Shown here: positions 3-45,810 of the stretch, one piece after another
Layout: every line of letters starts with the position of its first letter
Numbering within the stretch: position 1 is the first letter of the stretch
Assembly: GCF_000250735.1 (NCBI RefSeq)
Contig: NZ_AHZV01000258.1
Span: 1 to 47,353, forward strand
Length of the DNA: 47,353 nt
Reading direction: 5' to 3'
Origin: Anaerophaga thermohalophila str. Valhall
GTDB lineage: Bacteria; Bacteroidota; Bacteroidia; Bacteroidales; Marinilabiliaceae
The notes under the pieces: model-generated
What the model was told of the DNA's origin: nothing
Seen by the model: only the letters and a program-made list of their open reading frames with translations
Databases searched by the model: none
Made by a program: the position numbers and the translations under genes

Positions 3-3167
<3,165 letters not shown>

Positions 3168-3170
3168 AAA

Positions 3171-3200
3171 TAGTGTCGTATCATACATGACACGACACTA
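3171..3200. repeat. 30-bp near-perfect palindrome
   Basis: TAGTGTCGT at 3171-3179 pairs with ACGACACTA at 3192-3200, and the inner TCAT/ATGA also pairs, leaving a 2-base loop and one mismatch. It begins 3 bases after the stop of the GH2 gene. No T-run follows, so it may be a 3' stabilising hairpin or protein-binding palindrome instead of a terminator. Confidence 0.6.
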
Positions 3201-3242
3201 GAATTTATACAGGAGCGATAAAATTTACCCTGAAATAGAAAG

Positions 3243-3290
3243 AGGTTGTCGGAAAAATTAACTTTTTAAGGCAGCCTTCTTTTTTTTATT
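3243..3290 (+). terminator. Rho-independent terminator between convergent genes
   Basis: AGGTTGTC (3243-3250) pairs with GGCAGCCT (3270-3277), including two G-U pairs. An inner AAAAA/TTTTT pairing extends the stem. A T-rich run follows directly at 3278-3290. It lies between the plus-strand GH2 gene and the minus-strand diflavin reductase, whose stop codon is at 3289-3291. Confidence 0.75.
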
Positions 3291-4968
3291 AATACAAATC
3301 CATTTGCAATCTTTTCTCATCTTTCATGCGCTGAATATATTCTTTGGCCTGACGGATGGTTAAATTTCCTTCCGAAACAACAATTTCTTCAAGGGCTTCT
3401 TTAACGCTTTGCCCCATCGTACGTTTATTCCCGCAAATGTATACCGTAGCTTCTTTCTTGTCGATCCATCGGAACAACTCCTTTTGGCGCTGTTTCATGC
3501 GGTGCCGGACATAAATCTTGCTATCCTGATCGCGTGAGAATGCAGTGTCGAGCCTTGTTAATATGCCGGATTGCAAAAAGTTTTCCAATTCTTCACGGTA
3601 GAGAAAGTCGCTTTTGGAATGGCGATCACCAAATATCAGCCAGTTTTCTCCAATGGCACCGTTGCTTTGACGTTGTTGCAAAAATCCCCTGAAAGGTGCA
3701 ATTCCGGTACTGGTAGCGATCATTATTACGGGTTTGGCATCGTCTTCAGGAATGCGGAATTTTTCATTCTTCTCCAGGAATACGGGAACGGAATCACCTT
3801 CATCGATACGGTCTGAAAGATAAGTGGAGCATACCCCGGTGTGATGCCGTCCTTTTTGTTGATATTCAATCAGTCCTACCGTAAAGTGTGCCTCTCCCGG
3901 GAACATATCCGGGCTGTTGGCCACGGAATATAACCTGGGATTGAGGCGCCGTAAAAGATCGACCAGTTGCTGTGGATTGATGTCTCCGGGGAAATCGGAA
4001 ACCAAATCCAGGACATCACTGGTTTCACAATATTTATCCAGAAGCTGTTTGTCTGATATCAGTGTTTTGAGGTTGCCGTTTTGAGACAGTTCCGAATATT
4101 TTTTCACCATTAACGGTGTAATCAGGGTGATCTCGTATTCTTCCACCAGGGCTTCTTTTAGCAGACGCGGACCTCTTGCAGTTTCGACGGTAGTGGAACC
4201 GTCAAATTTCAGATGTTTCAGTAGTTTGTCGACCAGCAGGCGGGAGTTGTGGACATAGATGCCGAATGAGTCGCCCGGCTGAAAGTCGCTGCCAAACTTT
4301 TCCATCGAGAGGACAAGATGAAGCGTCCGCTTTGGGAAGTCGGGGTTGGTCAACGGTTTTATCTCTTTTACTTTGGCATAGAAAATATTTGAGTCCTCTG
4401 CATCCACCCGGTTTATTTCAAAAGCAAATTCCTTTTTGCTTTGGGTAATTGTTTTAGGAAGAACAGCTTCGAAGGCTTCCACCGACTGGCGAACCCACAG
4501 CATGGCATTCTCTTCATAGTCGATGTCGCATTCCACGAGCGGCGATATTTCCTTGGCGCCCAGCTGAAGCAGACGATTTCGGAAGTCGTGGCCTGTTTTG
4601 CAGAAATCTTTATAGCTGCTGTCGCCCAAAGCAAGCACGCTGAATTTTACTTCTCCGGGAATTTTAGCTTTATCAGAATGCATATAATTGTAAAAGTTTT
4701 CGGCTACAGCCGGAGGGTCTCCCTCACCGTGGGTGCTGACGGCTATCAGGATGTTCTTCATGTCGGTAATAACAGCGGGATTCATGGCGTTCATATCGTG
4801 AATTTCACTGGCAATGCCCAGGTGCCTGGCATAATCGTAAGCCAGCTGTGCTGCCGACTTTGAATTACCGGTACGGCTTCCGTAAATCACATGAAGTATG
4901 GTTTCCGGTGTAGCAGCATTTCCGGTTGCATTGGTTGGTATGTTTTGTGTTTTGGTTGTTTGTGTCAT
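3289..4968 (-). CDS. NADPH-dependent diflavin reductase, CysJ-like (sulfite reductase flavoprotein type)
   Basis: The 559-residue protein has three consecutive domains. The N-terminal flavodoxin domain (about 25-165) carries the FMN-loop motif YGSRTGNSKSAA. The middle FAD-binding domain carries RLYSVANSP and GVCSTYLSD. The C-terminal NADPH-binding domain carries STGIAPFRGFLQQR, FSRDQDSKIYVRHRM and YICGNKRTMG. This is the CysJ / cytochrome-P450-reductase layout, transferring electrons from NADPH through FAD and FMN to a partner. No CysI hemoprotein is adjacent, so the physiological partner is unknown; assimilatory sulfite reduction is the family default. No signal peptide is seen, so it should be cytoplasmic. 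The ATG at 4968 is followed by a Thr/Asn-rich leader of about 20 residues before the flavodoxin fold. Confidence 0.88.
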   Translation of the reverse strand: MTQTTKTQNIPTNATGNAATPETILHVIYGSRTGNSKSAAQLAYDYARHLGIASEIHDMNAMNPAVITDMKNILIAVSTHGEGDPPAVAENFYNYMHSDKAKIPGEVKFSVLALGDSSYKDFCKTGHDFRNRLLQLGAKEISPLVECDIDYEENAMLWVRQSVEAFEAVLPKTITQSKKEFAFEINRVDAEDSNIFYAKVKEIKPLTNPDFPKRTLHLVLSMEKFGSDFQPGDSFGIYVHNSRLLVDKLLKHLKFDGSTTVETARGPRLLKEALVEEYEITLITPLMVKKYSELSQNGNLKTLISDKQLLDKYCETSDVLDLVSDFPGDINPQQLVDLLRRLNPRLYSVANSPDMFPGEAHFTVGLIEYQQKGRHHTGVCSTYLSDRIDEGDSVPVFLEKNEKFRIPEDDAKPVIMIATSTGIAPFRGFLQQRQSNGAIGENWLIFGDRHSKSDFLYREELENFLQSGILTRLDTAFSRDQDSKIYVRHRMKQRQKELFRWIDKKEATVYICGNKRTMGQSVKEALEEIVVSEGNLTIRQAKEYIQRMKDEKRLQMDLY

Positions 4969-4983
4969 TGTTGTTAGATGCTT

Positions 4984-5054
4984 GATGTAAGATTAATAGA
5001 TGTAAGATTAATAGATATAAGATTAATAGATATAAGATTAATAGATATAAGATT
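4984..5054. repeat. 15-bp tandem repeat, about 4.7 copies
   Basis: The unit GATTAATAGATATAA is repeated from 4991 to 5050 (first copy with one change), preceded by a partial copy at 4984 and followed by GATT. It lies upstream of the diflavin reductase and downstream of the radical SAM gene on the minus strand. It is a plain AT-rich minisatellite with no recognised function. Confidence 0.85.
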
Positions 5055-5071: not shown

Positions 5072-5148
5072 GACCCTGCTCCATGCCCTCTGCTCCATGC
5101 TCCATGCCCCATGCCCCATGCCATCTGCCCCATGCCCTCTGCTCCGTG
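5072..5148. repeat. Heptanucleotide repeat tract (CYCCATG), about 11 units
   Basis: From 5072 to 5148 the sequence reads as successive 7-mers close to CTCCATG, CCCCATG and CCCTCTG. The 7-base phase is kept across the whole tract although individual units vary. Related tracts occur at 44622-44697 and, on the opposite strand, at 45783-45810. Confidence 0.85.
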
Positions 5149-5178
5149 CCCTTCGATTCCGGTCGGAGACGTTAACTA

Positions 5179-22325: not shown

Positions 22326-22491
22326 TAGTGTCTGTCCATAAAGTACCACTTGCTTCGTTACGCTTGACGCCAAAATCCTCATTTACGATGAGTAAACTCC
22401 GGTTTTGGCGGCTTCGCAAGCCTTGCAATTGGCACTTTCTGAACAGACACACATATTGTGAAAATTTTTGCGAGTTTATAGACGAACACTT
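22326..22491. mobile_element. MITE-like palindromic element, family 1, copy A
   Basis: The left end is TAGTGTCTGTCCATAAAGT and the right end is the reverse complement of a degenerate AGTGTTCGTCTATAAA. An inner CACTTTCTGAACAGACACA near the right also pairs with the left end. Related copies lie at 36420-36588, 39950-40116 and 44319-44487, with a short derivative at 44249-44318. There is no coding capacity. It begins 16 bases upstream of the HTCS start codon, so it has probably displaced or rebuilt the HTCS promoter. Confidence 0.75.
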
Positions 22492-33883: not shown

Positions 33884-34207
33884 TTGAATTTTAAATATGG
33901 TACTACTCTTATTTTAGTGGTTAATATTCTTATTATATGAAACGCTGTTTAAATGTAGTTTAATATAATTCAATAGATCGTTAGATTTTTAGATATAAGA
34001 TGTAAGATAATTCATCAGTATAAATAATGTCTAAGTTATTGGTCTGATGGAACTCGTATGCAAGCATTTATTTATATTCTTGTTGTGGGAAACCCTGCCA
34101 TGCTCGTTTCGTACAACCTTGATATACTGTATTTTAACAAGCAAACCTTTTGGACACAAACAATTGGTTTGCAACGTTTTGCAAAAGTTTAACGGAGTAT
34201 TAATAAT
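33884..34207. other. AT-rich intergenic stretch
   Basis: No gene is seen. It contains a LacI-like inverted repeat and a sequence shared with the GH3 upstream region (34168-34201). Confidence 0.5.
34168..34201. promoter_or_regulatory. Inverted repeat plus 21-bp motif shared with the GH3 upstream region
   Basis: TTTGCAA (34168-34174) and TTGCAAA (34179-34185) form an inverted repeat with a CGTT spacer. Overlapping it, GCAAAAGTTTAACGG then AGTATT (34181-34201) matches 41813-41833 at 20 of 21 positions. These lie about 330 bases upstream of the GH2 gene at 34533 and about 200 bases upstream of the GH3 gene, suggesting a common operator or promoter-linked site. Confidence 0.35.
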
Positions 34208-34417
34208 TTAAATGCAATTGAAATATAGTTGAAATGGGAATGTGGTTGAAATATTGCCCTTTTTGATAGATGCAACTGATACTGCTGCTCTGTTTATTTG
34301 CTGTACAAGAGCTATTTTCCCATCTGAGGGGGGGAAACCGCTTAACTTATAAATATCCTTTACCAACTCTTTTGGCAGCTGATAAATTTCCAACTTCTGA
34401 AAACTAAAATACAACAT
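34208..34417 (-). pseudogene. Truncated four-helix-bundle (S23-type) protein gene
   Basis: The frame begins FQKLEIYQLPKELVKDIYKLSGFP and continues QQINRAAVSVAS, matching the N-terminal half of the widespread four-helix-bundle proteins related to 23S rRNA intervening-sequence ORFs. After AAVSVAS the expected NIAEG segment and the C-terminal two helices are missing and the frame ends in unrelated sequence (IKKGNISTTFPFQ). Short direct repeats of TTGAAAT flank the truncation (about 34216-34255). It is probably non-functional. Confidence 0.7.
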
Positions 34418-34532
34418 ATAAACTATATTAAACTATATTTTAACTACATATAAACAAATTTTAAGTTATCATTAAATTCGTGGTAGAACTCTTTTTTTAA
34501 ACACTCATAAGTTATTACAAAACATAAAAGAT

Positions 34533-36408: not shown

Positions 36409-36419
36409 CGGCAGAATAA

Positions 36420-36588
36420 TTCGTGTCTGTCCATAAAGTGCCATTTACTGTGTTACGCTCGTCCGAAAATTACTCATTTACGATGAGTAAACTCCGTATT
36501 TTCGGACTTCGCAAGCCTTGTAAATGACACTTTCTGAACAGACACATGATAAGTAGGAAACTTTTTCTACTTTACAGACAGGCACTAA
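36420..36588. mobile_element. MITE-like palindromic element, family 1, copy B
   Basis: The 169-bp element starts TTCGTGTCTGTCCATAAAGT and ends with the reverse complement of TTAGTGCCTGTCTGTAAAGT. It has the same internal plan as copies A and C, with CTCATTTACGATGAGTAAAC in the middle. It lies between the GH2 terminator and the 3' end of the dnaE2-like gene. Confidence 0.8.
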
Positions 36589-36617
36589 TTCGGAAAAGAT
36601 AAGAAAACCGTCAAAAA

Positions 36618-39554
36618 TCACACCCCCCTCGGGTCAGCCTGCAACGGCAAAGCTGCCATCTTTTCTACCTCTACGGAGGGCTGTCCGAACTCACTGACAA
36701 TTTTCCCCAGAATCAGATAAACGCCGTTTCCGGTGAATGGCCACTGCTTCAGAACCTGTGGAAAATGAACGGTGTCGAAAAATTCACCGTTGGCATCGAT
36801 GAAAGTGGCAAAGTGCATGATTTGATGGTTGACGGTTCGTACATATTTTATGGTGACCAGTTGTCCTGCCATGCGCACCCGGCGACCAATATTTTGCTCC
36901 AGGTCGCGGGCTCGGAGCTCACCACGAAACGATGTTTTCAGCATATCGAAAAAGGAACTTCCCACGGGAAATCCCAGCAGTTCTATTTCATCGTAAGCAT
37001 CTTCGATACGTTGTTGTTCGAAGCGGGGCATCCGGTAGTCGGGCGATTTAAGCGAAAACAGGCGGGGCAGCTTTTTTTTCTTTTTCTCGCCCGACAAAAG
37101 CAGGTGGGCCTGCCACAACAGTTCGGGTTTGCTCTTGCCGGTAAAGCGAAAAGCACCAAGGCGTATGAGAAGTATTAGTTGTTCGCGGCTGATGCCTGTG
37201 CGTTTGATGAAATCTTCCAGATTCTGATAAGTGCCGTTGCGCTGCCTTTCTTCAATGAAGTTCAGGATGGTTTTTGTCTCCAGATCGTTTACATGTACAA
37301 ACCCCAGGAAGATGTCCTTCCCCGATATTGAAGTGGCGTATTGACCGCGGTTTACGCATGGCAGGTGAATATTGGCCCCCCATCGTCGTGCTTCATTCAC
37401 ATAGAGCCACGTGGAATAAAATCCGCCAAAATTATTGATTACTGCCACCATAAATTCCAGCGGATAGCGGGCCTTCAGGTATAAACTCTGAAAACTCTCC
37501 ACGGCATAGGATGCTGAGTGGGCTTTTGAAAAAGAGTAACCTGCAAACGACTCAATTTGTCGCCATACTTCCGACGTTAGAGCTTGCGGATAACCACGCT
37601 GCCGGCAATTTTCGAAAAATTTATTGACAATGGCCTGAAAAGCCGCTTTGGAACGGTATTTTCCGCTCATGGCGCGGCGCAATACATCGGCATCGGCCAG
37701 GTCGAGTCCGGCAAAATGGTGACACACTTTAATGACATCTTCCTGGTAAACCATCACTCCGTAGGTTTCGCTGAGCTGTTCCTTCAGTATCGGGTGAGCA
37801 TATTCAAACCCTTCGGGATTGTGAAACCGCCGTATGTATTCCCGCATCATACCTGATTTTGCTACGCCCGGCCGGATGATGGAGCTGGCAGCCACAAGCG
37901 TCAGATAATCATCGCAACGTAGTTTTTTAAGCAATCCCCGCATGGCCGGACTTTCGATGTAAAAACATCCCGTTGTTTCACCCTTTCTGAGAAGTTCCCT
38001 GACCTGTTTGTCTTTCTTAAATTTCTCTACCTGGTGCATGTCGATTTCTTCTCCGTGATTTTCTTGCACGATTTCGATGCAATCGCGGATGTGTCCGATG
38101 CCCCGCTGGGAGAGAATGTCAAATTTTTCAAAACCGATGTCTTCGGCGGTGTACATGTCCCACTGGGTTGTCGGAAATCCTTTTGGTGGCATGTCCAGTG
38201 CGGTATAGTCGGTAATGGGAGCATCCGAAATAAGAATGCCGCCGGCATGAATGGTGCGCAGATTGGGAAAACCGGCCATCTGTTGTCCCATTTGAAGGAT
38301 TGTTTTTCCGACTGTGTCCGGTTCAAAGCCTGCCGGACGGGCCACCAACTGGTCAATTTCTTCTTTCGGCAGTCCGTACACCTTTCCCAGTTCACGAATG
38401 GCTGCCCGTGCCTGAAAGGTGGAGACAGCACCCAGTAGCGCCGTGTGCGCATTACCATAGCGTTTGAAAATGTAATTCTGAACTTCATCGCGCTCACGCC
38501 AGGAGTAATCAATGTCAAAATCGGGCGGAGAGGTGCGTTTGGGATTCAGGAAGCGTTCAAAGTAGAGATTTAATTCAATCGGATCCACATCGGTTATTTT
38601 CAGGCAATAGGCAACCACACTGTTGGCGCCACTGCCCCGTCCCACATGATAAAATCCACGGGAGAGGGAATACCTGATGATGTCCCACACAATCAGGTAA
38701 TAAGCTGCAAAACCCATTTTACTGATGATTGAAAGTTCCTTTTCCACTCTTTGGCGAGCCACCGAATTGTTGTTCCCATACCGCTGCCGGAGGCCGTCCA
38801 TTGCCAGTTGGGCGAGCAGAAGCTCATCATCACGACGGCTGCCTGTGTAGGTTTGTTTGTTTTTACTGCCTTTGAAGTCGAAGTCAAAAGAGAGCCGGCT
38901 TAACAGGTTATCTGTTGTTTTTACGATTTCGGGACGGTCGGCGAAAGCTTTCATCAGTTTTGCCGGTGGCACCATCCAGTCGTAAGGAGATGCCACGTCA
39001 TCGGGAGTCAGACGGTCGAGCAGAGTGTTTCGGTCAATGGCTCTCAGGTGGCGGTGCAGTTCCATCCCCCGGCGATTGGCAAAAACCACCGGTTGCCAGA
39101 TGAGAAGACGATCCTGACGGTTTCGCCAGGGAGATGTAAGCAATTGCTTTAGTTGAAAATGACGGATACCGATGTATTCATTGTCGTTCAATTCGGACGG
39201 CTGCCGGCTGCCCCAGGGCCATACTATAAAAGCATTTTCAAAAGCGGGTGGCTTATCGGGGAAGGGTAATCCCTGCAGGCGGTAATGACTTAAAAAACGG
39301 TTTAACTCGCCAAACCCTTTGAAGTTTTTTGCAATGCCGGTATAAAGCCATTTGTTGTCGTTTCGAAACTCGATGCCCGCCATCGGGGTAATGTTGTTTT
39401 CGCGACACGCTTTTACAAATTCAAAAATACCGGTTGTGTTATTGATATCGGTAAGAATAAGTGCACTAATGCCCTGCTCTGCAGCCCTGGCTGCCAGCTC
39501 TTCGGGGGAGAGAGTCCCGAAGCGGAGACTGTAGGATGAATTACCAATTATCAA
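36618..39554 (-). CDS. DNA polymerase III alpha subunit, DnaE2/ImuC-like (5' end remodelled)
   Basis: The 978-residue protein has an N-terminal PHP domain, the C-family polymerase core with GRGSGANSVVAYCL and catalytic aspartates in PPDFDIDYSW (Asp345, Asp347), a helix-hairpin-helix region and a C-terminal OB fold (RVRMAGQLVTIKYV). The length and the nearby dinB match the error-prone translesion cassette of Bacteroidota, not the replicative DnaE. The start is abnormal: no ATG is available, and the frame opens at TTG (39554) right after a TAA inside a 14-bp tandem repeat. The expected beginning (Met, then an H-x-H PHP metal motif before YSLRFGTLSPEEL) is replaced by MIIGNSS. Translation efficiency and PHP integrity are therefore doubtful; the core is intact. 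Confidence 0.88.
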   Translation of the reverse strand: MIIGNSSYSLRFGTLSPEELAARAAEQGISALILTDINNTTGIFEFVKACRENNITPMAGIEFRNDNKWLYTGIAKNFKGFGELNRFLSHYRLQGLPFPDKPPAFENAFIVWPWGSRQPSELNDNEYIGIRHFQLKQLLTSPWRNRQDRLLIWQPVVFANRRGMELHRHLRAIDRNTLLDRLTPDDVASPYDWMVPPAKLMKAFADRPEIVKTTDNLLSRLSFDFDFKGSKNKQTYTGSRRDDELLLAQLAMDGLRQRYGNNNSVARQRVEKELSIISKMGFAAYYLIVWDIIRYSLSRGFYHVGRGSGANSVVAYCLKITDVDPIELNLYFERFLNPKRTSPPDFDIDYSWRERDEVQNYIFKRYGNAHTALLGAVSTFQARAAIRELGKVYGLPKEEIDQLVARPAGFEPDTVGKTILQMGQQMAGFPNLRTIHAGGILISDAPITDYTALDMPPKGFPTTQWDMYTAEDIGFEKFDILSQRGIGHIRDCIEIVQENHGEEIDMHQVEKFKKDKQVRELLRKGETTGCFYIESPAMRGLLKKLRCDDYLTLVAASSIIRPGVAKSGMMREYIRRFHNPEGFEYAHPILKEQLSETYGVMVYQEDVIKVCHHFAGLDLADADVLRRAMSGKYRSKAAFQAIVNKFFENCRQRGYPQALTSEVWRQIESFAGYSFSKAHSASYAVESFQSLYLKARYPLEFMVAVINNFGGFYSTWLYVNEARRWGANIHLPCVNRGQYATSISGKDIFLGFVHVNDLETKTILNFIEERQRNGTYQNLEDFIKRTGISREQLILLIRLGAFRFTGKSKPELLWQAHLLLSGEKKKKKLPRLFSLKSPDYRMPRFEQQRIEDAYDEIELLGFPVGSSFFDMLKTSFRGELRARDLEQNIGRRVRMAGQLVTIKYVRTVNHQIMHFATFIDANGEFFDTVHFPQVLKQWPFTGNGVYLILGKIVSEFGQPSVEVEKMAALPLQADPRGV

Positions 39555-39568
39555 TTACCAATTATCAA
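39541..39568. repeat. 14-bp tandem repeat (two copies, heptad-based) at the dnaE2 start
   Basis: TTACCAATTATCAA occurs twice in a row (39541-39554, 39555-39568), itself two heptads TTAYCAA. It covers the start of the dnaE2-like frame and lies next to the stop of the four-helix-bundle pseudogene. Similar heptads occur at 40125-40163. Confidence 0.85.
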
Positions 39569-39934
39569 TGATTGTTGATTCGGGTGGTTTTGATGATTGA
39601 CAAAAAGATACGTCCTATTTCGTCGGCATCTTCATGGAGCGTTGCATATTTTGAATCATCTAATAGTTTCACTGCCTTTAATAACTTTAGCCAGAATTGA
39701 GTCTCTAACGTTTCTTTGTAGGCAATGCTGATTTTATTAGAGAAGTCATTTCCTGAAATAGCTCCGTTTGCTTCAGCCAGATTTGCTCCGATGGATGTTC
39801 CGCTTTTCAATAATTGTCTGGCCAAATCAAATTCCTTTTTTTCTGATTTTAACCATTTGCAATAGGTATATACTCTTATTGCAAACTCTTATTGCAAAAT
39901 CAAAAGCTTTTTGATGGACTACATTTTCTTTCAT
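39565..39934 (-). pseudogene. Four-helix-bundle (S23-type) protein gene broken by a 13-bp duplication
   Basis: Read from ATG at 39934 the frame gives MKENVVHQKAFDFAIRV and then shifts. The cause is a perfect 13-bp tandem duplication, CTCTTATTGCAAA at 39873-39885 and 39886-39898 on the plus strand. Removing one copy restores VYTYCKWLKSEKKEFDLA joined to RQLLKSGTSIGANLAEA, the standard family sequence, through to IFLSIIKTTR at the C-terminus. The intact gene would encode about 118 residues. The family is cytoplasmic and of unknown function. It lies between dinB and dnaE2, with a MITE 15 bases upstream of its start. Confidence 0.85.
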
Positions 39935-39949
39935 GATTTTTTAATTTTT

Positions 39950-40116
39950 AATTGTCTGTCCATAAAATACCACTTGCTGCGTTACGCTTGCCGCCAAAAT
40001 CCTCATTTACGATTAGTAAACTGCGGTTTTGGCGGCTTCGCAAGCCTTACAATTGGCACTTTCTGAACAGACACACATCTTGTGAAAATTTTTACGAGTT
40101 TATAGATGAGCACTAA
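39950..40116. mobile_element. MITE-like palindromic element, family 1, copy C
   Basis: The left part reads TTGTCTGTCCATAAAATACC and the right end is the reverse complement of TTAGTGCTCATCTATAAA. The interior is nearly identical to copy A. It sits between dinB and the four-helix-bundle pseudogene, inside what is usually a dinB-dnaE2 operon. Confidence 0.78.
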
Positions 40117-40124
40117 TTAAATTA

Positions 40125-40163
40125 ATTGATCATTGATCATTGATAACTGATCATTGATAATTG
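40125..40163. repeat. Heptanucleotide repeat tract (ATTGATM)
   Basis: Successive 7-mers ATTGATC, ATTGATC, ATTGATA, ACTGATC, ATTGATA occupy 40125-40159, running up to the stop codon of dinB. They are related to the TTAYCAA heptads at 39541-39568 read on the other strand. Confidence 0.8.
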
Positions 40164-41306
40164 TTAAACCGCTCTTCCAACAGCCCCGACCCCAAACCGA
40201 TGGCGTACATAGTCCAGCGTTCTGTACAGCTGTACCTGCCGGGGGGTATCATCAAAAAGGTCGAGTTGCGGGGCACCACTTACCAGATGGGATAATCTTA
40301 CGCCAATCAGGCGTATTCTGACACGGCGTGTGTAGAGCCGCTTCAGCAAATCTTTGGCAACCGGGATCAGCAGGTGATCAAACGATGTGTAAGGCACCAT
40401 TTTTTGAAGGGTTCGGGTATCAAAATCACTGTATCTGATTTTTACGGATATGCATCCTGTCAGTTTCTCGCCGGCGCGTAACTGGTAAGCCAGTTTTTCG
40501 GTCATTTTGATAACGTGGGCTGTTAATATCTTCATATCTCCCGTATCCTGATCGAAGGTGCGTTCACTGCTGATGGATTTTCGTTCGGTGTAAGGTTCTA
40601 CCGGGGTAGGGTCAATGCCGTTGGCCCGTTGCCAGATGACAATGCCGTTTTTCCCGAGGGCATGGCGTAACATTTCAGGAGGCATATTACCCAGGGTTTC
40701 GATGCGATCGATTCCCATGGAACGCAGCAGCTTGTAAGTGGCTGGTCCGATCATGGGAATTTTACGGATGGACAGGGGCCACAGAAACGGGCGTACTTCA
40801 TTGAAAAGCACCTGTTTTTCACCGTTTGGTTTGGCCTCGCCTGTGGCAATTTTCGAAACGGTTTTATTAACAGACAGACCAAAAGAGATGGGCAATCCGG
40901 TTTCGCGCATGATTTTGTTACGCAATTCCCGGCTCCATTTCAGGCATCCGAAGAAACGATCCATGCCGGTAAGGTCCAGGTAATGCTCGTCAATCGAAGC
41001 CTTCTCGTAAAGCGGCGCCGATTCATCGATAATTTGGGTAACCATGCGTGAGTAGCGGCTGTATTCTTCCATATCGCCACGAACATAGAATGCATGCGGG
41101 CAAAGTCGCCTGGCCAGTTTCATTGGCATGGCCGAATGCACACCAAAACGCCGCGCTTCGTAGCTGCAGGCTGCTACCACTCCCCGGTCGGACATGCCGC
41201 CGACAATGACAGGCATTCCCTGAAGGCGACTGTTGAGCAATCGTTCTACCGAAACAAAAAATGAGTCCAGGTCGAAATGTACAATGTGCCGATTATCAAG
41301 ATTCAT
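40164..41306 (-). CDS. dinB: DNA polymerase IV (Y-family translesion polymerase)
   Basis: The 380-residue protein shows the Y-family palm motifs HFDLDSFFVSVERLL (Asp12) and YEKASIDEHYLDLTG (Asp106, Glu107), the helix-hairpin-helix thumb segment IRKIPMIGPATYKLLRSMGI and a C-terminal little-finger domain. It should bypass lesions in the cytoplasm with low fidelity. The C-terminus ends ...RHRFGVGAVGRAV and lacks an obvious clamp-binding extension. It is oriented toward the dnaE2-like gene and was probably once in a direct operon with it. A 15-bp palindrome lies 40 bases upstream of the start. Confidence 0.94.
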   Translation of the reverse strand: MNLDNRHIVHFDLDSFFVSVERLLNSRLQGMPVIVGGMSDRGVVAACSYEARRFGVHSAMPMKLARRLCPHAFYVRGDMEEYSRYSRMVTQIIDESAPLYEKASIDEHYLDLTGMDRFFGCLKWSRELRNKIMRETGLPISFGLSVNKTVSKIATGEAKPNGEKQVLFNEVRPFLWPLSIRKIPMIGPATYKLLRSMGIDRIETLGNMPPEMLRHALGKNGIVIWQRANGIDPTPVEPYTERKSISSERTFDQDTGDMKILTAHVIKMTEKLAYQLRAGEKLTGCISVKIRYSDFDTRTLQKMVPYTSFDHLLIPVAKDLLKRLYTRRVRIRLIGVRLSHLVSGAPQLDLFDDTPRQVQLYRTLDYVRHRFGVGAVGRAV

Positions 41307-44211: not shown

Positions 44212-44248
44212 TCATATCCGAAATAAATGCCCGTTTACAGATTGTAAA

Positions 44249-44318
44249 TTAGTGTTTGCCCATAAAGTCCCATTTGCTGTTTTACGCTTGCAGCTGGCAC
44301 TTTATGGGCAGACACTAA
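44249..44318. mobile_element. 70-bp deletion derivative of the family 1 MITE (copy D1)
   Basis: TTAGTGTTTGCCCATAAAGT at the left and the reverse complement of TTAGTGTCTGCCCATAAAGT at the right enclose only 30 bases. It directly abuts copy D2 at 44319. Confidence 0.75.
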
Positions 44319-44487
44319 TTAGTGCCTGTCTATAAAGTAGGGAAAGTTTCCTACTTATCATGTGTCTGTTCAGAAAGTGTCATTTACAAGGCTTGCGAAG
44401 CCGCCAAAAACGCAGTTTACTTTTCGTAAATGAGTATTTTGGCGGCAAGCGTAACACAGTAAATGGCACTTTATGGACAGACACTAA
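44319..44487. mobile_element. MITE-like palindromic element, family 1, copy D2 (inverted)
   Basis: The 169-bp element begins TTAGTGCCTGTCTATAAAGT and ends with the reverse complement of TTAGTGTCTGTCCATAAAGT. It is inverted relative to copies A-C and its termini are well preserved, so it is the best copy for defining the ends. Confidence 0.82.
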
Positions 44488-44815
44488 TTATACCTGAATT
44501 TTTGCAGGCAAACGGCTGCTTGTTTGCAAAAATTTGGATTATAGTATTTCATCATACAATAGATCGTCAGATTACTGATTTAATTTGTCCGATTTATTGG
44601 AGTAATATTTCCCGCTTTATTCTCCATGCCCCATTCTCCATGCCCCATTCTCCATGCCCCATGCTCTATGCCCCATGCTCTATGCCCCATGCTCTATCTT
44701 CTGCCTTTCGGCGACTTTTCTCCAACAATCCCTTGTTTGGTTAAGATCGAACTACAGATACTTTTACTTTTTCTTCCAAAAAATTCCGATTTTTACAGCT
44801 TAATTTTCTTCATAT
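44488..44815. other. Intergenic region upstream of the AEC permease
   Basis: Apart from the heptad repeat at 44622-44697 I see no gene or clear signal here. Confidence 0.5.
44622..44697. repeat. 14-bp tandem repeat (double CTCCATG/CCCCATK heptad), about 5.4 copies
   Basis: CTCCATGCCCCATT occurs twice, followed by CTCCATGCCCCATG, then two copies of CTCTATGCCCCATG and a partial CTCTAT. Each 14-mer is two heptads, the same unit as at 5072-5148. Confidence 0.9.
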
Positions 44816-45769
44816 ATGGAGTCACAGGTTATTGCAGAGCAGGTTGTCATTGCAGGCATGATTGTATTAACAGGTACGGTTGGCAGTTGGGCCAAAATTA
44901 TTACTGAGCAGATACGTTATGCTATCTCAAGGTTAGTTTTTAACATTACGTTGCCGTTATTGATCGTCACTACGATTTCCCGGATGGAGATGTCGCATGA
45001 GGTGCTTGTCAATGGATGGTGGGCATTAGTGTTTACCGTTGTGTCGATACTTTTGATGTATGGTTTTGGTAAAGTGTCTTCCCGGCTGTTTCGTTTGCCC
45101 AACCGTTCAGCTGCTGTGCATGAGTTGCATACCATGTTTGGAAACATTGTGTTCCTGGGCTTTCCGCTGATAGCCGCTTTATACCCCGAGGGGGAAAGCT
45201 TATTGTATGCTTCCATCTATTATATGGTATCCAGTTTTATGCAATGGACTTATGCGGTATTTCGTCTTAAGGGACAGAAGGATGTGCCGGTGCTTGACCG
45301 CTTTAATAACCTGCTAAATCCCAATACGGTTGCATTTGCTGTCGGGATATTGCTTTTCTTTATTCAGTTTCAGTTACCATATCTGGTATATCAGCCTTTT
45401 CGAACAATCGGGAATGCTACCAGTCCGTTGGCACTATTGTATATTGGAGCTACACTTGCAGGAACAAATTTGAAGGGGATACTCAAACGTTACGATATTT
45501 ATGTTTTGAGCTTCAATAAGTTGTTGTTAATTCCTTTTGTGCTATTGCTGATAATTAACTTTTTTGTAAAACAGGTTGGAATTGATTTTGGCGATATGCC
45601 CGGCACCATAATCGTACTTGAAACCGCTATGCCATGTATGAGTATGATAGTGATAATGGCAAAGGCTTATGGCGCTGCCGATGACCTTGCTTCTGAAAAT
45701 GTGTTTTTCACTACTGTCCTTAGTCTTCTTACTCTTCCTGTTGTATATTTTCTTACTACGGCGGTTTGA
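44816..45769 (+). CDS. AEC (auxin efflux carrier) family permease
   Basis: The 317-residue membrane protein has about ten hydrophobic segments arranged as two halves, with the family-like segments LVFNITLPLLIVTTISRME in the first half and GNATSPLALLYIGATLAGTNL before the second. The family includes bacterial malate and other organic-acid transporters as well as plant PIN-like proteins; the substrate here is unknown. It has no obvious operon partner. Heptad repeats flank it on both sides (44622-44697 and 45783-45810). Confidence 0.86.
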   Translation: MESQVIAEQVVIAGMIVLTGTVGSWAKIITEQIRYAISRLVFNITLPLLIVTTISRMEMSHEVLVNGWWALVFTVVSILLMYGFGKVSSRLFRLPNRSAAVHELHTMFGNIVFLGFPLIAALYPEGESLLYASIYYMVSSFMQWTYAVFRLKGQKDVPVLDRFNNLLNPNTVAFAVGILLFFIQFQLPYLVYQPFRTIGNATSPLALLYIGATLAGTNLKGILKRYDIYVLSFNKLLLIPFVLLLIINFFVKQVGIDFGDMPGTIIVLETAMPCMSMIVIMAKAYGAADDLASENVFFTTVLSLLTLPVVYFLTTAV

Positions 45770-45782
45770 GGGTGGATTGCAG

Positions 45783-45810
45783 CATGGAGCATAGAGCATG
45801 GAGCATGGAG
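45783..45810. repeat. Heptanucleotide repeat tract, reverse orientation, four units
   Basis: CATGGAG, CATAGAG, CATGGAG, CATGGAG are the reverse complements of CTCCATG-type heptads, beginning 14 bases after the AEC stop codon. Confidence 0.85.

Follow-up and report, generated by a model that had tools for sequence, protein, structure and literature searches.

The window analysed here, a stretch of 47,353 nucleotides from Anaerophaga thermohalophila str. Valhall, raises the question of what lies between two polymerase genes, dinB and dnaE2, and whether the parts of this intergenic block belong together. The upstream gene dinB (40164–41306, minus strand; ORF of 380 aa) encodes a Y-family polymerase (Pfam IMS, E = 6.9e-45), and the downstream gene dnaE2 (36618–39554, minus strand; ORF of 978 aa) matches DNA_pol3_alpha (E = 9.9e-69); Pfam thus confirmed the polymerase families of both neighbours, whose names are those given in a preliminary description of this DNA. 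The order claimed there for the minus strand (dinB stop, heptad array, MITE, S23-type gene, heptad array, dnaE2) was confirmed by the ORFs, the repeat search and Pfam. The block at positions 39539–40167 (minus strand) in this gap is a single element composed of a broken S23/IVP gene, inverted heptad arrays and a nested MITE. Its 5΄ arm in operon sense (40123–40167, minus strand) is a degenerate heptad array with the unit AATGATC/AATTATC (Tandem Repeats Finder, period 7/14/21) and overlaps the stop codon of dinB. The S23/IVP four-helix-bundle gene (PF05635; 39565–39934, minus strand, start codon read by eye) matches the profile over 39607–39891 (E = 2.6e-22) with one internal stop, and its frame is broken at a 13-nt tandem duplication (39872–39898, no strand assigned; Tandem Repeats Finder, period 13, 100% match). 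The 3΄ arm (39539–39579, minus strand; ATTGATA/ATTGGTA), the inverted partner of the 5΄ arm, was identified by Tandem Repeats Finder (period 7/14 at 39539–39569), inverted repeats and the predicted fold, and runs into the start region of dnaE2, the listed ORF of which begins at a TTG inside this arm.

The same kind of unit flanks the S23 gene on both sides, as had been noted before, the 'ATTGATM' and 'TTAYCAA' heptads being one kind of unit on opposite strands; however, the arrays are inverted, not direct. In the repeat search, 39541–39579 and 40123–40167 formed an inverted repeat of 39 nt with 82% complementarity and a spacing of 549 nt. As RNA, the two sides of this element form a stronger duplex with each other than any of the 80 combinations with a side from another S23 locus, and the predicted fold closes with the paired arms (z = –11.3, with the MITE hairpin included; z = –12.3 at another locus, L109; 20 shuffles each). 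The MITE (39953–40119, minus strand), which had been regarded as an insert beside the cassette, is instead nested inside the element and belongs to a separate repeat family, with further copies found by sequence match at 22329–22490 (94%), 36424–36546 (82%) and 44361–44483 (89%, opposite strand). We rejected the MITE as part of the S23 unit: in the stretches examined, it was near the gene at only two of the eight S23 loci of this genome (G000), namely L005 and L002 (at a distance of about 120 nt in the latter). Among ORFs of ≥60 aa, only the S23 frame was listed between the arms, and no transposase gene, and the S23 protein is 65% and 63% identical to those of L123 and L115, respectively. A target-site duplication was looked for at dinB–dnaE2, where the array edges merge into the target, and none was established. 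An Rfam scan of the window found only a tRNA, and the element sits between protein genes, not in an rRNA helix. It has three features of an intervening sequence (IVS): an S23/IVP ORF (with a broken frame), a complementary closing stem and an orientation of the ORF that matches the host transcript. We consider the block likely to be an intervening-sequence element of the S23 (IVP) kind, an S23 gene between inverted arms of degenerate, mostly 7–8-nt units, for which movement, RNase III processing and binding of the arms by S23 are inferred.

Arms were complementary at most of the S23 loci tested. Own-arm complementarity reached P ≤ 0.05 at 92 of 131 loci, where 6.6 would be expected by chance, and in 52 of 72 site clusters; no significant arm complementarity was detected at the other 39 of the 131 loci. 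These loci were what remained of 191 S23 genes after the exclusion of 2 that scored low against the profile and 58 in which a side was shorter than 25 nt. The flanking-array check suggested in the preliminary description gave a positive answer, as S23 genes often carry arrays, and more so than two control gene sets (ParE and dinB). Alignment of one side to the reverse-complemented opposite side gave scores >15.25 for 57/96 S23 genes, 1/26 ParE genes and 4/27 dinB genes from the same genomes, and two of the 27 dinB controls scored >21. Genes with <300 nt on a side were dropped from this comparison, leaving 96 of 103 S23, 26 of 30 ParE and 27 of 29 dinB genes (72 of 88 in another S23 set), and the profile scan of the genome contigs comprised the best 80 of at least 587 matches, with a bias to one S23 subfamily. 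Direct scores >15.25 occurred in 23 of the 96 S23 genes, and direct similarity exceeded inverted similarity at some loci (e.g. L103, L059, L069 and L241). Compared with cross-locus pairs, duplex energies were significant (P < 0.05) at 46 of 92 loci; this null is a hard one because 5΄ sides share a purine bias. The G–C skew was positive on the 5΄ side at 80 and negative on the 3΄ side at 71 of the 92 loci.

In Bacteroidota, the element is mostly found between same-direction genes and in their direction: the S23 gene shared the direction of both neighbours in 65 of 76 resolved site clusters and was opposite in 3. A copy from Azospirillum (L253) with arms of heptads (by eye) lies inside a 23S rRNA gene (PF05635 at 1998–2333, E = 1.7e-33; LSU rRNA at 786–3984), and S23 elements are therefore operon relatives of rRNA intervening sequences. 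Among the cyanobacterial plasmid copies, 3 of 14 (L240, L242 and L247) are antisense to both neighbours; the inverted score was low (7–12) in 6 of the 14 copies measured, and the direct score was lower or similar in 5 of these. Such antisense copies would fit a model in which the arms act in DNA, so that the element is moved or copied as a DNA hairpin, as REP/RAYT and single-strand transposons are, and inverted gene conversion or template switching keeps the arms complementary. The numerous inverted array pairs without S23 in one genome (G018) agree with this possibility, as do arms that differ at one shared site yet remain complementary. A wobble test for selection on sense RNA was weak and gave no clear bias (117 G:U versus 92 A:C mismatches; 20 versus 13 loci), and the duplex was stronger in sense at 52 and in antisense at 40 of 92 loci. 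However, both the predominance of sense orientation (65 versus 3 site clusters) and the location in 23S rRNA fit a need to live inside transcripts, and S23 is not a known nuclease. Movement as a DNA hairpin is thus a serious possibility, although on balance not the probable one.

Alleles with and without the element coexist. The search for empty sites that had been proposed earlier was carried out, and alleles lacking the element were found at both dinB–dnaE2 and hisA–hisF. The distance between dinB and dnaE2 is 612 nt in the occupied genome (G000) and 11 nt in G018, and only 5 nt, stop included, separate the last dinB codon from the dnaE2 start in a same-genus relative (G001). This last junction holds a perfect 16-bp palindrome containing one AATGATC unit; an origin of arm units from the target palindrome is unsupported as a general rule because the units follow S23 type, and at the dinB–dnaE2 site itself it is not ruled out. 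The hisA–hisF junction carries the element in 8 of 28 genomes, with two S23 protein/arm types. Occupation of the his operon position in several genera could also mean that hosts took up S23 for a function of their own, with the arms as regulatory hairpins of the operon, and S23 is indeed under purifying selection where measurable (dN/dS of 0.05–0.10 in the 4 of 12 pairs measurable, two of these with dS near 2). Nevertheless, the flanking genes checked with Pfam belong to unrelated families, the copies L004, L005, L006 and L008 are broken or truncated, 20 of 28 genomes lack S23 at the his junction, and arms differ at a shared site, all of which make a host function unlikely.

The arms and the S23 gene form one unit, and particular S23 types tend to be paired with particular arm units. 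The proteins of L108 and L109 are 99% identical, and the main homology between these loci spans array to array, with unrelated flanks. Among pairs at unrelated sites with S23 identity ≥60%, the arm unit was common to 23 of 50, against a permuted mean of 2.7% (0/2000), and at the his site gene type and arm unit switch together. Genomes carry several copies, with 8 S23 loci in G000 and up to 15 PF05635 matches in G036; 2rld and 2gsc are relatives of the S23 profile with solved structures. The earlier proposal that four-helix-bundle genes and heptads form a unit accordingly holds insofar as gene and repeats travel together, as seen in the L108/L109 homology and the sharing of arm units; however, the repeats are not confined to the S23 gene, because arrays also exist without it.

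Such arm-like arrays without S23 are common, occurring at about 11 places in G000, at many in G018 and, by eye, at the dinB–dnaE2 junctions of G009 and G007. Tandem Repeats Finder located three in the window (no strand assigned). One, at 5076–5152 (CTCCATGCCCCATG type), has its top arm matches in L085_4904, L004 and L117, which belong to one S23 group. The others lie to the left (44622–44694; top arm matches L117 and L004) and right (45781–45810) of a transporter gene (44816–45769), the right array being the inverted partner of the left (score 26 against its reverse complement). The window also contains a second, decayed and interrupted S23 element at about 33897–34489 (minus strand), antisense to both neighbours; its arm units, read by eye, measure about 10 nt, and its S23 domain lies at 34265–34399 (E = 2.9e-7, below the curated cut-off). 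The four-helix-bundle remnant previously described at 34208–34417 is part of this larger copy, a member of the family with arm units of this length; blastn relates it to L002 (89% identity over 227 nt, 86% over a further 72 nt). Arrays without S23, together with the different copy numbers of orthologous arrays (L007 versus L070/L071), could indicate that heptad arrays are independent slippage repeats of intergenic gaps, into which S23 merely inserts or near which it persists; heptanucleotides are also reported to outnumber other classes of long simple repeats in most genomes of one survey (PMC4679880). This explanation is at odds with arms that are mutually reverse-complementary at most S23 loci tested and few control genes, with arm units that follow S23 type at unrelated sites, with homology covering arms and gene in L108/L109, and with the joint switch at the his site, and we regard it as improbable.

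Equally improbable is a role of S23 as a reverse transcriptase accessory like Avd of diversity-generating retroelements, which belongs to the S23 family, with the element moved by reverse transcription in trans: five sub-cut-off PF05635 matches (three in G036, one each in G021 and G008) lie ≤0.7 kb from a reverse transcriptase and sense orientation would fit an RNA intermediate, but PF00078 matches occur in only 22 of 41 genomes, and such a partner was rejected as a general requirement because two genomes with 6 S23 copies each (G018 and G022) lack a PF00078 match. Whereas weak PF05635 matches adjoin reverse transcriptases, the nearest one to a studied S23 locus is 2.3 kb away (L061, G037). 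G000 has three PF00078 matches, none of them on the window contig, so that the reverse transcriptase adjoining Avd in diversity-generating retroelements is lacking there.

Intervening sequences with an S23 gene are known from the 23S rRNA of Coxiella, Leptospira and others, with GACAGAT heptamers preceding the S23 gene in Coxiella and cleavage of this intervening sequence by RNase III in vitro (PMC4990558). The operon elements share with them a sense S23 ORF, stem-forming inverted ends, sporadic presence and, as in Coxiella, heptamers adjoining the ORF; they differ in lying in gaps between protein-coding genes, in having arrays on both sides and units that follow S23 type, and in occurring in several copies per genome. 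TAACTGA and other heptamer repeats are known in Beggiatoaceae, Cyanobacteria and Bacteroidetes (PMC4679880). Like S23 arms, they are mostly intergenic 7-nt tandem arrays found sporadically in the same phyla, with indels in steps of 7; unlike them, they were described almost wholly as direct repeats, and the main text of that paper contains neither 'S23' nor 'four helix' (PMC4679880). REP/REPIN repeats with RAYT proteins resemble S23 elements in that a protein gene lies between inverted repeats of its own and gene-less repeats are dispersed elsewhere, but RAYT is a transposase and S23 units are tandem 7–8-mers; the window element, which encodes S23 and not a RAYT (HUH) protein, is not a member. 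Cyanobacterial STRR are further 7-nt tandem arrays akin to heptamer repeats.

If the block is an S23 intervening-sequence element, the S23 protein would recognise its own arms, and the arms of read-through RNA would pair in a long stem, with the S23 gene looped out; these steps are inferred, without RNA, protein or binding data. RNase III might cut the arm stem, as it is reported to do in the intervening sequences of 23S rRNA, and such folding and cutting would allow the insertion to be tolerated inside a transcript. We know of no catalytic activity of S23. The unit presumably moves via host enzymes, a route proposed because no gene other than S23 was recognised within the element and S23 is not known to act as a transposase or reverse transcriptase. 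On this reading, insertion at the dinB–dnaE2 junction was followed by decay of the S23 gene, with the MITE landing inside. These results point to the dinB–dnaE2 package as a type widespread in bacterial operons and a little-noticed kind of mobile element. More tentatively, and with slightly less than an even chance of being right, S23 elements may form a cross-phylum, transposase-less mobile class whose four-helix-bundle protein recognises 7–8-nt hairpin-end repeats, enables spread, in sense orientation, into operons and rRNA genes, and gives rise to arm-only hairpins.

S23 proteins were still described as having no known function in a 2016 paper (PMC4990558), and a 2015 paper gave no mechanism for the heptamer repeats found in Cyanobacteria and Bacteroidota (PMC4679880). 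The correspondence of arm unit with S23 type connects these two questions, S23 function and the origin of heptamer repeats, and predicts that an S23 protein binds its own arm, for which there are no binding data. It also implies that a selfish insert that forms structure lies between the genes of many operons, with possible effects on the expression of the surrounding genes. If true, a cross-phylum S23 class would be a source of the unexplained heptanucleotide repeats in Bacteroidota and Cyanobacteria.

The element at 39539-40167 lies on the minus strand, in the order dinB, heptad array, MITE, four-helix-bundle S23 gene, heptad array, dnaE2. The names dinB and dnaE2 come from the preliminary description, made from the sequence alone, and our matches (Y-family polymerase and DNA polymerase III alpha, respectively) agree with them only at the family level. 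The S23 gene matches PF05635 (E 2.6e-22) with one stop inside the frame, and the frame break coincides with a 13-nt tandem duplication. The two flanking arrays, hereafter arms, form an inverted repeat (39 nt, 82%), and in the predicted fold of the minus-strand RNA (39535-40170) they make up the closing stem (z –11.3, 20 shuffles, MITE hairpin included); the side-to-side duplex exceeded 80 of 80 pairings with other loci. The encoded protein is 65% and 63% identical to those of loci L123 and L115, and the 5' arm, not the 3' arm, resembles the arms of these loci above the 99% level. The MITE (39953-40119) is nested in the element, and its family, which has inverted ends, occurs at three further places in the window (22329-22490, 36416-36590 and 44247-44491) and outside it beside L002, in L260 (genome G023, 93%) and partially in L010. 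Several S23 genes of the window's genome (G000) and of its closest relative (G001) have another repeat nearby (GGTCTGATGGAACTCG ... CATGCTCGTTTCAT, read by eye, variants included), seen at about 34010-34110 and in L001, L006 and L042; S23 elements may gather such repeats.

The preliminary description had read this block as an insertion into the translesion operon, and the spacing in relatives bears this out, since element-free alleles exist. The last dinB codon and the dnaE2 start are separated, stop included, by 612 nt in G000, by 5 nt in G001, whose dinB is 98% identical to that of the window, and by 11 nt in G018; the dnaE2 ATG lies equally far from the conserved part in G001 and G018. Of 30 dinB loci examined, 13 contained both genes, and coordinate comparison placed no S23 match at the junction in the 12 loci other than that of the window. 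Some junctions, for example in G009 and G007, carry arrays without S23 (by eye). The empty G001 junction (L010) contains a perfect 16-bp palindrome including one copy of the window heptad, which could represent a target preference, an excision scar or chance.

Occupied and empty alleles were also found at the site of L001, where both neighboring genes match PF00977; from gene order, we take them to be hisA and hisF. A his query matched 49 of 61 genomes, and 28 of the 30 loci kept were resolved: S23 with arms was present in 8 and absent in 20, with gaps of 5–123 nt in 19 of the latter and 267 nt in G009. By eye, some S23-free gaps are not clean, as G044 (123 nt) contains arm-like heptads and G013 one AAGGCAGAAG. 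Among six S23 genes compared at this site, two types were distinguished (46–53% identical between types), the first with TAGTCA-like arms (L001, L049) and the second with AGGCAGA-like arms (L040, L042, L043, L046); the arms in G048 and G043 fit these two arm types by eye. G000 and G001 carry different types despite their common genus. Because each type has its own arm unit, gene and arms are replaced together.

That four-helix-bundle genes and heptads form a unit, as proposed beforehand, was supported by loci at unrelated sites. L108 and L109 of G018 encode 99% identical S23 proteins at unrelated sites, and their main alignment (1310-1903 versus 1312-1903) runs from the left array through the right array; the remaining alignments correspond to arrays of the same arm unit elsewhere in the two stretches. 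Among pairs without a common flank and with S23 identity of at least 60%, 23 of 50 had a common unit in at least one arm (permutation mean 2.7%, maximum 12%, 0 of 2000 reaching the observed value), and among pairs below 40% identity, 93 of 5704 did. Of 12 S23 pairs, 4 gave dN/dS values (0.05, 0.05, 0.05 and 0.10), with dS close to 2 in two of these; dS was saturated in the other 8 (pN 0.08–0.19 versus pS 0.76–0.87).

PF05635 was present in 33 of 41 genomes, G000 included. We aligned the 5' side of each gene with the reverse complement of its 3' side (inverted score), and took 95% and 99% levels from cross-locus alignments. In the first set (97 loci, 103 genes, 96 with 300 nt on each side), inverted scores exceeded these levels in 57 and 30 of 96 genes and direct scores in 23 and 14; tandem arrays beyond shuffles occurred on both sides in 39 of 96, and 96 of the 106 arrays had a period of 7, 8, 14 or 15. 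For controls from the same genomes, the corresponding values were 1 and 0 of 26 (inverted), 6 and 5 (direct) and 0 (both-side arrays) for ParE, and 4 and 2 of 27, 5 and 1, and 2 for dinB. In a second set, comprising the best 80 of at least 587 matches in named records, 72 of 88 genes had flanks; of these, 39 and 22 passed the two levels in the inverted and 12 and 5 in the direct alignment, and 13 had both-side arrays. When the sets were pooled and each locus was tested against arms from other sites, complementarity reached P ≤ 0.05 in 92 of 131 loci (6.6 expected; 52 of 72 by site cluster) and P ≤ 0.01 in 47. Of 92 5' sides, 80 had a positive G-C skew, and of 92 3' sides, 71 had a negative one.

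S23 genes lie predominantly in sense to both neighbors (++), rather than antisense to both (--) or mixed (+-, -+). The counts (++, +-, -+, -- and unresolved) were 81, 8, 3, 1 and 10 in the first set (n = 103), 67, 3, 2, 0 and 16 in the second (n = 88, from the best 80 loci of at least 587 matches), and 140, 10, 4, 3 and 34 when flanks of at least 150 aa were used (n = 191). With loci grouped into site clusters by any common flank (n = 97), they were 65, 5, 3, 3 and 21 (binomial P = 3.6e-16 for 65 versus 3). In the same genomes, ParE (n = 30) gave 13 ++, 4 --, 3 +-, 2 -+ and 8 unresolved, and dinB (n = 29) 6 ++, 5 --, 15 -+ and 3 unresolved.

Arrays also occur without the gene. The window arrays 5076-5152, 44622-44694 and 45781-45810 were compared with both sides of 191 S23 genes, and their best arm matches were L004, L117 and L085_4904, which constitute one S23 group. 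Matches to CATGCYCYATGCYCYATGC numbered 22 in G000, 4 in G005 and 2 each in G001 and G023, with none in three other genomes, and those to TTAGGCYRTTAGGCYRTTAGG 36 in G018, 3 in G001 and 0 in five others; backward control patterns had none. In 8 of 9 G018 stretches, about a dozen inverted array pairs 140–370 nt apart were counted by eye, and no S23 was recognised among ORFs of at least 80 aa within them; these pairs could be arm-only derivatives. Stretches L285-L293 of G018 (contigs C38, C12 and C40) contain dense inverted octad-array pairs, mostly on a 66-kb contig; these pairs, in many cases nested with another unit, TCTGGC, are possibly arm-only hairpins. In the window, the inverted solo arrays 44622-44694 and 45781-45810 flank a gene for membrane transport (44816-45769, PF03547); here the 5' array is the C-rich one, the reverse of most S23 elements. 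A 15-nt tandem array (GATATAAGATTAATA, 4984-5054) resembles those next to a fragment of S23 in G001 (L072, L073; score 35).

The comparisons establish that the arms have the potential to pair, that they form a unit with the gene and are cognate to it, that insertion in Bacteroidota is in sense, and that empty alleles and an rRNA copy exist. By inference, S23 may recognise the arms, the stem in read-through RNA would be cut or would at least shield the insert, and the element may move via host enzymes. A DNA-hairpin route, instead of arms acting at the RNA level, is not ruled out, because the wobble test of RNA versus DNA selection gave only a weak difference (117 G:U versus 92 A:C mismatches). 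Reverse transcriptase was rejected as a general requirement: PF00078 occurs in 22 of 41 genomes and in neither G018 nor G022, which have 6 S23 copies each. Sub-cut-off PF05635 matches lie less than 0.7 kb from reverse transcriptases in G036 (C250, C646, C23), G021 (C29) and G008 (C23); they are presumably Avd of diversity-generating retroelements.

A search for plasmid-borne S23 returned 29 records, 23 of them cyanobacterial. Among 14 cyanobacterial records, 10 were annotated in sense to both neighbors, 3 antisense to both (L240, L242, L247) and 1 mixed (L251); L238 is a near copy of L239. Seventeen regions were taken up and arm scores measured in 14 without a null: the inverted score was at least 15 and surpassed the direct one in 7 (L240, L244-L248, L250), was 7–12 in 6 (L238, L242, L243, L249, L251, L252; direct above inverted in L238 and L251), and 29 versus 69 direct in L241. 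In L241, L243 and L246, S23 lies in sense inside CRISPR loci of cyanobacterial plasmids, between cas6 and cas4 (type I-D) or between cas10 and a Cmr3-family gene (type III-B).

In the open-licence literature, which mostly leaves out subscription papers, none of the matches listed describes S23 genes that lie within operons between inverted arrays of heptads. TAACTGA heptamers of Beggiatoaceae, Cyanobacteria and Bacteroidetes are described in the accessible parts of PMC4679880, which do not mention S23 and consider a repeat-binding protein as a possible mobile element. As far as its available text goes, PMC5524665 places a Flavobacterium columnare four helix bundle protein, located between guanylate kinase and nicotinate adenylyltransferase, in a phage-element table, and a figure legend of PMC10910872 names the 23S rRNA IVP. 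In the portions of PMC4990558 available, the Coxiella 23S intervening sequence has GACAGAT heptamers ahead of its S23 gene and is cleaved by RNase III in vitro, and an earlier proposal is cited that intervening sequences may be mobile, with the ORF as a mobility component. The Coxiella protein is there held to be probably unmade and decaying, whereas selection is seen in the S23 genes here. Azospirillum lipoferum 4B (L253) carries a PF05635 gene (E 1.7e-33, 1998-2333) within LSU rRNA (786-3984), with arms, by eye, of heptads AGAGGACGGATGACAGAGGACGG and a near complement. With one locus here and one paper on the rRNA side, this position and the Coxiella heptamers make operon and rRNA elements look like one class.
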